Both the position numbers and the translations under genes were made by a program. Under the pieces are notes generated by a model that was not told the origin of the DNA, searched no databases, and worked only from the letters and a program-made list of their open reading frames with translations. This document shows, piece by piece, positions 4,217-7,352 of a stretch of 64,000 nt of DNA (positions are counted from its first letter, which is position 1; every line of letters begins with the position of its first letter). The DNA is taken from positions 62,001-126,000 of the forward strand of contig JAQYVZ010000005.1 in assembly GCA_030145205.1 (NCBI GenBank), given 5' to 3'. Source of the stretch: Desulfuromonadales bacterium (GTDB taxonomy: Bacteria > Desulfobacterota > Desulfuromonadia > Desulfuromonadales > BM103).

Positions 4217-4819
4217 TTAATCAATCTTCCGCCGACCTTCAATCGCCCGGTTAACCGTCGCTTCGTCGACATATTCCAACTCGCTGCCCATCGGGATGCC
4301 GTACGCCAACCGGGTGACCCTGATCCCGCTCTGTTGAATCTGCCTGGCGAGATAAAGCGCCGTGGCATCACCCTCCACAGTGAAGTTGGTGGCCACCAGC
4401 ACTTCGTCAATTTCCCCCGGCTGCAACCGCTGCAGCAGCTCCGGGATCTTCAGGTCGTTCGGCCCGATTCCATCCAACGGTGACAGCGCCCCATGCAGGA
4501 CATGGTAACGGCCCCGGAAGGAGTGGCTGCGTTCCACGGCCAGCAAGTCCTGTGGGGTCTCCACGACACAGAGGAGGCGGTCATCTCTTGCCGAATCCGT
4601 ACAGATCTGGCAAGGGTCCGATTCGGTAATGTGGTAACAGACAGAGCAGAACCGAGTGTGGCGTTTCAAATCCAGGATCGCGCCCGCCAAAGCCTCGGCC
4701 TCAGCCGACGTTTGGCGGAGCAAGAAAAAAGCCAAACGGGTTGCTGTTTTACTGCCAATTCCGGGGAACTTGGTTAGTTCCGTCACCAATCGGGTGAAAG
4801 ACGGGATGGAGTCTAACAT
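4217..4819 (-). CDS. recR: Recombination protein RecR
   Basis: This 200-residue protein has the usual RecR length and layout: an N-terminal helix-hairpin-helix (KFPGIGSKTATRLAF), a four-cysteine zinc finger (CSVCYHITESDPCQIC, residues about 57-72), a TOPRIM domain (VVETPQDLLAVE onward) and the C-terminal GIPMGSELEYVDEATVNRA region. RecR works with RecO and RecF to load RecA at gaps. It follows ybaB and dnaX in the common dnaX-ybaB-recR order, though 190 bases separate it from ybaB, so it may also have its own promoter. I see no other gene in that gap. Confidence 0.97.
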   Translation of the reverse strand: MLDSIPSFTRLVTELTKFPGIGSKTATRLAFFLLRQTSAEAEALAGAILDLKRHTRFCSVCYHITESDPCQICTDSARDDRLLCVVETPQDLLAVERSHSFRGRYHVLHGALSPLDGIGPNDLKIPELLQRLQPGEIDEVLVATNFTVEGDATALYLARQIQQSGIRVTRLAYGIPMGSELEYVDEATVNRAIEGRRKID

Positions 4820-5009: not shown

Positions 5010-5324
5010 CTAACTGAGGCCGGGGATGTTGAGCCCCCCGGTGACTTTGCCCATCTCTTCCTGAACCATTTCCTGGCTCTTGCGCACCGCCTCATTGATG
5101 GCGGCAACCACCAGGTCCTGAAGCATTTCTACATCCTCGGGGTCAACCGCTGCCGGATCGATCTGCAGAGAGACGATCTGTTGCTTGCCGGTGACAACAG
5201 CGGTCACCATGCCACCACCGGAGGTCGCCTCAACCTGTTTCTGCTCCAGTTCTTCCTGCACCTGGGCCATTTTCTTCTGCATTTGCTGCGCCTGCTTCAT
5301 AATATTGCCAAGACCTCGTGCCAT
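5010..5324 (-). CDS. ybaB: YbaB/EbfC nucleoid-associated protein
   Basis: This 104-residue protein starts with MARGLGNIMKQAQQMQKKM, followed by a glutamine/glutamate-rich helix, the GMVTAVVTGKQQIVSLQIDP sheet and a C-terminal MQDLVVAAINEAVRKSQ helix. This is the complete YbaB/EbfC fold, a small dimeric DNA-binding protein. A strong GGAGGAG site precedes the ATG. It lies 80 bases after dnaX, its usual neighbour. Confidence 0.95.
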   Translation of the reverse strand: MARGLGNIMKQAQQMQKKMAQVQEELEQKQVEATSGGGMVTAVVTGKQQIVSLQIDPAAVDPEDVEMLQDLVVAAINEAVRKSQEMVQEEMGKVTGGLNIPGLS

Positions 5325-5405: not shown

Positions 5406-7067
5406 TCAGACAAAACCTTTGTCCGTCGGAATCACCTTGACGATCTCTCCGTCAAAAATCTCCAGAACGTTTTTGAGCGCCGGGTGCTGCATGGCATCCT
5501 CGCGCAAACGTCGCATCCGGTCTGTTTCCCGGGCCTCCCGGGTTTCAACCAGCGAAGGCGGCGCGTCCTGCTGTTCCTCTTCGATCGCGGAAAACGTCAA
5601 CTTAATTTTCTGTTGGAAGTACGCTTCGGCCAGAGTCGTCAGGTCCTGCAGGTTCTCCGGCTCCAGGAGCTGGACCAGCATGAACGACCCCTTGGGGTAA
5701 CCGATGTCGACTTGGGGCGGGGCCATGGCAAGCGGCCGGCCATGCTCGAGCAGTGAACCGAGCAAAGGGCGCTTCTGCCTGACCTTCTCAACCAGCCCCT
5801 GCCAATCCGTGCTGTCAGGCTTCGTGGCGACGGGGGCTTCAGGCTTTTTTGGCGGCACCCCTCCGGTTGGCGATGATTCGGCCTTGGCGCCCCGGACAGG
5901 CGCTGCCGAGACAGGGGCACCGGCGAGCCGCTTCTCCAGCAGCTCGAGTTGACGGATAAGGGCGCCGATCTCCTGGGTCGGTGCCAAGTTGGCAATCCGG
6001 ACCAGGGCCATCTCCAGGGTCAGTAAAGGGTAGGGGCTGTTGCTGAGCTCCGCCTGCACCTTCATCAGCAGGGTGACAATCCGTTGCAGGTCTTCCAGGC
6101 TGGCCGCTTCCGCCAGCTTTTGCAGTTCCTTGAGTTCCTCGTCAACCAAGTCGAGCAAATCGTCCGGATCCGCCACGACCTTGCAGATGATCAGGCCACG
6201 CAACAACTCGACCAGCTCCTGCACAAATTGGCGCAAGGAGTGTCCCAGCTGATCCACCTGGCGAACCAGGTCGAGCAGGCGCCGGCTGTCATGCTGCAGG
6301 ATTGCCTCAATCGTGTCGAGCAGCAGACGTCGATCCACCATGCCGAGCAGCGCCTGAACGTCATCATCCGCAATCGTTTCGCCACAAAAAGCGATGACCT
6401 GATCAAGGGTAGACAGGGCATCGCGCATGCTGCCCTCGCCGTGGCGAGCCACCAGGCCCAAGCTCCGATCTGAGATCTGCAGCGCCTCGGCGTCAGCGAT
6501 TTCACGCAACCGCTGTGTCACCTTTTGCACCGGAATTTTACGGAAATCAAACCGCTGACAACGTGACAGAATCGTCACCGGGATCTTGTGCGGCTCCGTG
6601 GTGGCAAAAATAAACTTGGCATGTTCGGGAGGCTCTTCGAGTGTTTTCAGCAACGCGTTGAACGCATTGGTCGAGAGCATGTGGACTTCATCGATAATGA
6701 AGATTTTGAAGCGTGCCCGGGACGGCAGATAGCGGATGTTCTCGCGCAACTCACGGATATCATCGACACCGGTATTGGACGCGCCGTCAATTTCCAGGAC
6801 ATCCATCCCCTGGCCGGACGTGATCTCCAGACAGGAAGGGCACTCGTTGCAAGGTTGTTCGGAGAGGCCCTGTTCGCAGTTGAGCGCTTTGGCCAGGATG
6901 CGCGCGGCCGAGGTCTTGCCGACGCCGCGGGCGCCGGTAAACAGGAAGGCGTGGTGAATTCGTCCGGAACGGATGGCGTTCGCCAACGTCTGACCGACAT
7001 GTTCCTGGCCGATCAGATCCGAAAAGTTCTGCGGACGCCATTTGCGAGCCAACACCAGATAGGCCAT
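5406..7067 (-). CDS. dnaX: DNA polymerase III subunits gamma/tau
   Basis: This is the 553-residue clamp-loader ATPase. It shows Walker A (GARGVGKTSAARILA, residues 45-59), a zinc-binding cysteine cluster (C64, C73, C76, C79), Walker B DEVH, sensor 1 (FATTEPHKIPVTILSRCQRF), and domain III to about residue 370. A proline/alanine-rich linker leads to the tau-specific tail. At codons 407-408 the gene carries A AAA AAG with an upstream GGAGG and a downstream hairpin; a -1 shift there would end translation one codon later, giving a 409-residue gamma form (see findings). The gene starts only 33 bases after the SRP RNA, with no terminator between. Confidence 0.96.
   Translation of the reverse strand: MAYLVLARKWRPQNFSDLIGQEHVGQTLANAIRSGRIHHAFLFTGARGVGKTSAARILAKALNCEQGLSEQPCNECPSCLEITSGQGMDVLEIDGASNTGVDDIRELRENIRYLPSRARFKIFIIDEVHMLSTNAFNALLKTLEEPPEHAKFIFATTEPHKIPVTILSRCQRFDFRKIPVQKVTQRLREIADAEALQISDRSLGLVARHGEGSMRDALSTLDQVIAFCGETIADDDVQALLGMVDRRLLLDTIEAILQHDSRRLLDLVRQVDQLGHSLRQFVQELVELLRGLIICKVVADPDDLLDLVDEELKELQKLAEAASLEDLQRIVTLLMKVQAELSNSPYPLLTLEMALVRIANLAPTQEIGALIRQLELLEKRLAGAPVSAAPVRGAKAESSPTGGVPPKKPEAPVATKPDSTDWQGLVEKVRQKRPLLGSLLEHGRPLAMAPPQVDIGYPKGSFMLVQLLEPENLQDLTTLAEAYFQQKIKLTFSAIEEEQQDAPPSLVETREARETDRMRRLREDAMQHPALKNVLEIFDGEIVKVIPTDKGFV
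5794..5864 (-). other. Predicted programmed -1 ribosomal frameshift signal in dnaX
   Basis: Read on the minus strand, GGAGG (5864-5860) is followed after 9 bases by the heptamer A AAA AAG (5850-5844) in the correct reading phase. Five bases later AGCCCC (5838-5833) can pair with GGGGCT (5799-5794). In the -1 frame the codons after the heptamer are GCC TGA (stop at 5841-5839). The three elements and their spacing match the E. coli dnaX signal that makes gamma. That the signal works here is inferred. Confidence 0.7.

Positions 7068-7262: not shown

Positions 7263-7352
<90 letters not shown>

Follow-up and report, generated by a model that had tools for sequence, protein, structure and literature searches.

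A candidate E. coli-type programmed frameshift signal in dnaX of a Desulfuromonadales bacterium and its relatives

Known dnaX recoding systems and the locus under study

According to PMC5009743, about half of the ribosomes (~50%) translating E. coli dnaX shift frame, and a signal of this type is listed in PMC3711429 for nine genera, from Escherichia to Neisseria and Vibrio. In Thermus dnaX, a run of nine As is described seven-eighths of the way through the gene (PMC1088944). The transcriptional slippage sites known from these accounts are runs of about eight or more (PMC3711429, PMC1088944). As summarized in a 2012 review, beyond the enterobacteria and Thermus most bacteria keep no dnaX frameshift signatures and may make no gamma (PMC3290774). 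No report of dnaX frameshifting in Desulfuromonas- or Geobacter-like bacteria was found in the open-licence literature.

Here, we analyze the dnaX gene carried by a stretch of 64,000 nucleotides (the window) from the genome of a Desulfuromonadales bacterium, a lineage distant from the enterobacteria. The window gene and E. coli dnaX have in common an in-frame A AAA AAG, an upstream Shine-Dalgarno (SD)-like sequence, a stem about five bases downstream, a TGA reached in the -1 frame after one codon, a cut after domain III and a single tRNA-Lys(UUU). Moreover, E. coli K-12, used as a control, showed the same signal layout as the window. The window stem, unlike that of E. coli, has a long and variable loop and a 3' arm fixed in conserved W-x-G-L codons, and the predicted C-terminus of gamma is KKA where E. 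coli has KKE. With Thermus thermophilus dnaX, the window gene would share two DnaX products made from one gene and a cut near a poly-A site, but it has only six As, accompanied by elements that stimulate ribosomes. A further point of comparison is provided by two-ORF dnaX genes, also recoded at A-rich sites (as described in Antonov 2013; PMC3711429). These genes need recoding to make tau, whereas in the window the tau frame is open and recoding would give the short product. We regard the window signal as a new lineage of the known E. coli-type frameshift. We consider it very probable that it directs an E. coli-type programmed -1 ribosomal frameshift producing the gamma form of DnaX.

Anatomy of the window signal

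The features of the locus are collected in Table 1. The tau frame is a single ORF, uninterrupted across the slip site, and residues 1-367 of its product match solved E. coli gamma/tau chains. Immediately upstream of dnaX, a tRNA-Ser (GGA) is found at 7265-7352 on the minus strand.

Table 1. Positions of the dnaX features and neighbouring genes in the window
Feature	Position	Strand	Basis
dnaX, tau frame, 553 codons + stop	5406..7067	minus	ORF; NCBIfam and Pfam DnaX matches
Putative gamma coding path: tau frame up to heptamer, -1-frame Ala, TGA; 409 aa	5839..7067	minus	translation
Internal SD-like GGAGG, 9 bases 5' of heptamer	5860..5864	minus	sequence; peak of SD pairing over 61 sites
Slippery heptamer A AAA AAG	5844..5850	minus	sequence; kept in 16/16 full-length genes of the family
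-1-frame TGA, one codon past heptamer	5839..5841	minus	translation; TGA in 58/58 signal-bearing genes
Stimulatory stem, 5' arm	5828..5838	minus	fold; covariation in relatives
Stem, 3' arm, within the W-Q-G-L codons opening the tau C-terminal part	5794..5804	minus	fold; covariation; Gly = GGG in 53/58
Gene downstream of dnaX, taken to be YbaB/EbfC-like	5010..5324	minus	ORF; likeness to the E. coli dnaX-ybaB gene order
Presumed recR-like gene	4217..4819	minus	ORF; named from its sequence

The first-pass annotation of this DNA had described an internal GGAGG, an in-phase A AAA AAG nine bases later and a hairpin five bases further on, all placed in the linker after domain III, and had deduced a 409-residue gamma made beside a 553-residue tau. 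This description proved exact down to the coordinates. The heptamer, which is the sole AAAAAAG of dnaX, corresponds to codons 407-408 of the tau frame; in the -1 frame it is followed by GCC (Ala) and then by TGA (5841-5839), and translation gives the two product lengths that had been deduced. The match to DnaX domain III stops at residue 373, and the putative gamma cut lies after it. The stem is made of six base pairs (AGCCCC/GGGGCU), a C.A mismatch and four further pairs. For the 45-nt hairpin, the predicted folding energy is -17 kcal/mol, with the core helix also present in the centroid structure; the minimum-energy fold retains the six outer pairs, and its inner bases are paired slightly otherwise.

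As regards the decoding machinery, the tRNA-Lys(UUU) found by pattern search in the window genome is expected to read both AAA and AAG. No tRNA-Lys CUU was detected in this genome within one mismatch of the pattern, a search that a divergent CUU would escape. The 3' tail of 16S rRNA, carrying the anti-SD sequence, was not found in the window assembly; among nine relatives searched, it was found in two (G006 and G105).

Taken by itself, the sequence of the window makes a signal that exceeds chance only moderately. GGAGG followed at 6-12 nucleotides by AAAAAAG occurs once in the 64 kb, where 0.12 occurrences are expected; at least one was present in 12 of 100 shuffles. Among the 113 stop-to-stop ORFs of at least 150 codons, four have an in-frame A AAA AAG, and only that of dnaX is followed by a -1 stop within two codons. 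A composite pattern combining heptamer, TGA and stem has a single occurrence in the 3.7-Mb genome. The fold energy of the window hairpin is ordinary (z -1.11 for 45 nt and +0.40 for 61 nt), and its use as proof of the hairpin was dropped. Since single-sequence fold energy is ordinary, the case rests on comparison rather than on energetics.

The following mechanism can be proposed. A ribosome would reach A AAA AAG with lysyl-tRNAs in its P and A sites, while GGAGG, lying behind the ribosome, would be available for base pairing with 16S rRNA and the downstream hairpin would resist movement. In some of the ribosomes, the tandem lysyl-tRNAs would slip back by one base; these ribosomes would read Ala, stop at TGA and release a gamma of 409 residues comprising domains I-III. 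The ribosomes that do not slip would continue to the 553-residue tau. Gamma would then be used in clamp loaders holding fewer polymerases. By analogy with E. coli, we infer the slippage itself, its rate and this role of gamma.

Conservation of the linker signal in the family and the order

Among 136 genomes of the window's order searched for dnaX, 135 gave some DnaX-family match, and the counts rest on 109 full-length genes. They exclude loci that are partial or misread (L202, L207, L211, L217, L218, L221-L227). Of these, L223 and L225 have the signal, L207 has an A11 near its C-terminal end, in L226 the -1 stop comes nine codons after A AAA AAG, and L202 has one match outside the linker; the remaining excluded loci have none.

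In the window's family (22 genomes), the site can be read in 16 full genes and two fragments. As for the unreadable genomes, no match to dnaX was obtained in G005 or G012, and in G015 the gene is limited to its first 178 codons; in G019, neither contig piece (L221 and L224) includes the site. The signal is present in all 18 readable sites, and in the 16 full-length genes as well as in the two fragments the -1 stop comes one codon later. In the order as a whole, 58 of the 109 full-length genes, spanning 15 of 20 families and 35 of 49 genera, have the heptamer and a near -1 TGA. No other -1 stop is used in these 58 genes; the heptamer is A AAA AAG in 54 of them and A AAA AAA in four. The predicted gamma, of 406-440 aa, is always cut after domain III. 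The other 51 full-length genes of the order are without linker signal, which is therefore dispensable in evolution. Two families, f17 (13 genes) and f7 (five genes), show neither a complete linker signal nor a C-terminal A run of at least nine in any of their 18 genes.

Codon choices at the site were compared with those made elsewhere. In the linker, 64 of 78 Lys-Lys pairs are spelled A AAA AAR; in other parts of these genes the proportion is 17 of 99. Immediately 3' of the heptamer, the codon has a final T in 54 of the 58 signal-bearing genes (11.4 expected from codon use), and this T, with the GA that follows, forms the -1 TGA. In the W-x-G-L motif, the Gly codon is GGG in 53 of the 58 genes, compared with 23% over the remainder of their sequence; it is also GGG in 13 of 24 scorable genes without signal. 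Three loci with longer or displaced runs (L169, L185, L196) do not enter the Gly-codon, consensus-alignment and core-pair tallies but are among the 61 sites of the stem-pairing and SD counts. These biases indicate that the linker signal is conserved beyond what the protein sequence demands and is under selection in the relatives.

A strict composite pattern, which misses divergent sites, matched 44 of the 277 genomes of the class, one of them (G213) seemingly unlike the others. In a draw of 395 genomes across the phylum, it matched four, all within the window's order; the 378 genomes from other classes gave no match. In a FastTree phylogeny of DnaX residues 1-368, both branches of the order's deepest fork include genes with the signal, and at least 20 changes are required in the linker signal; this tree is a quick one, with many open forks, rooted on four outgroup rows. 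An old origin followed by repeated loss is likely, though not proven.

The stem was followed over the 61 sites, L148 being dropped from the pairing count for lack of a W-x-G-L motif in range. The 3' arm starts 39 nt past the heptamer in 48 of the 61 sites. The outer six pairs are formed in 91% of cells, and the nine-pair stem in 87% of cells in register, against 32-54% when shifted. In a set of 34 genus representatives, 82.4% of stem cells are paired, against 31-56% when slid. Compensatory changes were found in this set at columns 45/82 (C-G in 28, U-A in three) and 47/80 (G-C in 19, C-G in nine). RNAalifold, run unguided, picked five pairs of the stem helix. It should be noted that two of five covariation measures were no higher than in shuffles of the 34 representatives, and that one slid register is slightly richer in double-change cells (16, against 14 in the true register). 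As a whole, these comparisons support a stem that is maintained via compensatory changes in the relatives. Some f1 sequences hinted at a pseudoknot pairing loop bases 22-27 with the segment 3' of the stem; as only 51% of its cells pair in the 34 genus representatives, it was rejected.

Across the 61 sites, SD pairing energy peaks just 5' of the heptamer. It reaches -5 kcal/mol or lower in 42 of the 61 sites, against a mean of 14.7 in whole-gene controls; compared with synonymous shuffles (mean 32, maximum 40), the excess is modest only. We take this internal SD as real, though looser and the least constant element of the signal. The first-pass annotation had pointed to related dnaX genes as the place where heptamer, GGAGG and stem should be found to covary. 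The relatives bear this out for the heptamer, kept in the family and in 58 of the 109 genes of the order beyond amino-acid demand, and for the stem with its compensatory changes; SD pairing is retained at most sites, less constantly than the other elements.

Two other readings of the locus have to be weighed against ribosomal frameshifting. The heptamer could be real and shifty and gamma a tolerated, functionless by-product, conservation then coming from ancestry and from the coding of a Lys-Lys-x-Glu-Ala-Pro linker. We judge this improbable. The 51 genes of the order that do without the signal, and the many changes required by the tree, would fit such a by-product. However, it is at silent positions (the AAA AAG choice, the T before GA, the GGG for Gly) that conservation is seen; moreover, stem pairing is kept through two-sided changes, and the cut never falls elsewhere than past domain III.

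That gamma would arise from transcriptional slippage on the window A run, as in Thermus dnaX, is hardly credible. It is true that the site is A-rich and lies in the same gene, and that two relatives (L169 and L196) have A9-A10 at the same place of the linker without stem or SD. The run of the window is, however, only A6, shorter than known slippage sites, and an SD and a stem target ribosomes, not RNA polymerase; transcriptional slippage at the window site was rejected on account of the A6 run. Programmed ribosomal frameshifting, the reading that we prefer, would make this an E. coli-type signal, covarying at the RNA level, that is kept in many families of an order only distantly related to E. 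coli. As for lengthened linker runs in the order, they reach A10 in L169 (codon 417), A9 in L196 (codon 409) and A8 in L179 (codon 418). In L169 and L196, which have lost stem and SD, transcriptional slippage seems to have replaced ribosomal slippage.

A C-terminal A run in sister orders

Outside the window's order, 30 of the 141 genomes of the class were sampled, giving 29 loci, of which 26 are complete dnaX genes (L260-L277, L280-L287) and three are incomplete (L278, L279, L288). The linker signal is found in none of the 26 complete genes. In 25 of them, a run of A9-A10 lies about 45 codons (~40-54) from the C-terminus, within GAA AAA AAA A.., against 1.4 of 25 expected given the amino acids. 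A -1 TGA is found two codons on in 24 of the 25 genes (4.3 expected). An SD-like match accompanies the run in only one of the 25, and no downstream fold is seen (mean z 0.01 for the 25, against -1.43 at the 58 linker sites). With at least nine As, these runs resemble the Thermus kind. When the 135 complete genes are considered together, the linker signal occurs in 58 and a C-terminal A run of at least nine in 31, with no gene combining the two; any p-value for this count is inflated by common descent. Of the 277 class genomes, 135 were matched by the pattern GAAAAAAAAANNNNTGA, some of the matches lying outside dnaX.

The C-terminal A9-A10 of the sister orders is probably a slip site, apparently relocated in these groups to the distal end of dnaX. 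We lean towards the view that the class has two mutually exclusive dnaX slip sites. One would be a mid-gene ribosomal site in the window's order, with A AAA AAG, a stem and often an SD. The other would be an unstimulated C-terminal A9-A10 in Geobacter-like sister orders, where RNA polymerase probably slips, and its product would be a minimal gamma without the alpha-binding tail.

What such a slip would remove was considered using the last 140 residues of one sister-order protein, L277. Their predicted fold (mean pLDDT 91) consists of a compact domain (2-79) connected through a short segment to two terminal helices (90-111 and 113-122), with the A run falling at the start of the first terminal helix. 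In a fold search, the second-ranked match was chain E of 5fkv, an E. coli Pol III complex (probability 0.99; E 0.014, a weak value). We read this chain as the tau C-terminal domain because the paper on the complex fitted a tau500 fragment (PMC4703070). The alpha contact is located at the end of domain V in the description given in PMC11869525. In an alignment, the sister-order tail corresponds to the final 45 residues of E. coli tau. The tau C-terminus is reportedly the alpha-binding site, to go by the title of the 2007 work of Jergic et al. Since the tail matches the alpha-binding end of E. coli tau, our hypothesis is that the product of a C-terminal slip would keep the whole C-terminal domain fold and lose the terminal helices together with polymerase binding. 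If the C-terminal site works, the two layouts would test the purpose of gamma, namely loss of polymerase binding alone versus loss of the helicase-binding part too. A minimal gamma would in that case be defined by lost polymerase binding, not by lost domains.

Several other A runs were observed in dnaX genes. Within the window's order, members of family f6 (L205, L206, L207, L208, L161, L213 and the truncated L203) have A9-A11 about 45 codons from the dnaX end; the linker signal is absent from these genes, and the distance to the -1 stop is variable. Near a linker C9 run, dnaX of the incomplete sister-order locus L278 (G136) falls into two overlapping frames, and an A10 persists near the C-terminal end; this split may be an assembly error. 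Among dnaX genes from named records of many phyla (L053-L120), 14 of 68 have A9-A10 in the linker region, for instance in Fibrobacter, Blastocatellia and Neomarinimicrobiota, and in one Lachnospiraceae gene (L104) A AAA AAG is followed one codon later by a -1 stop.
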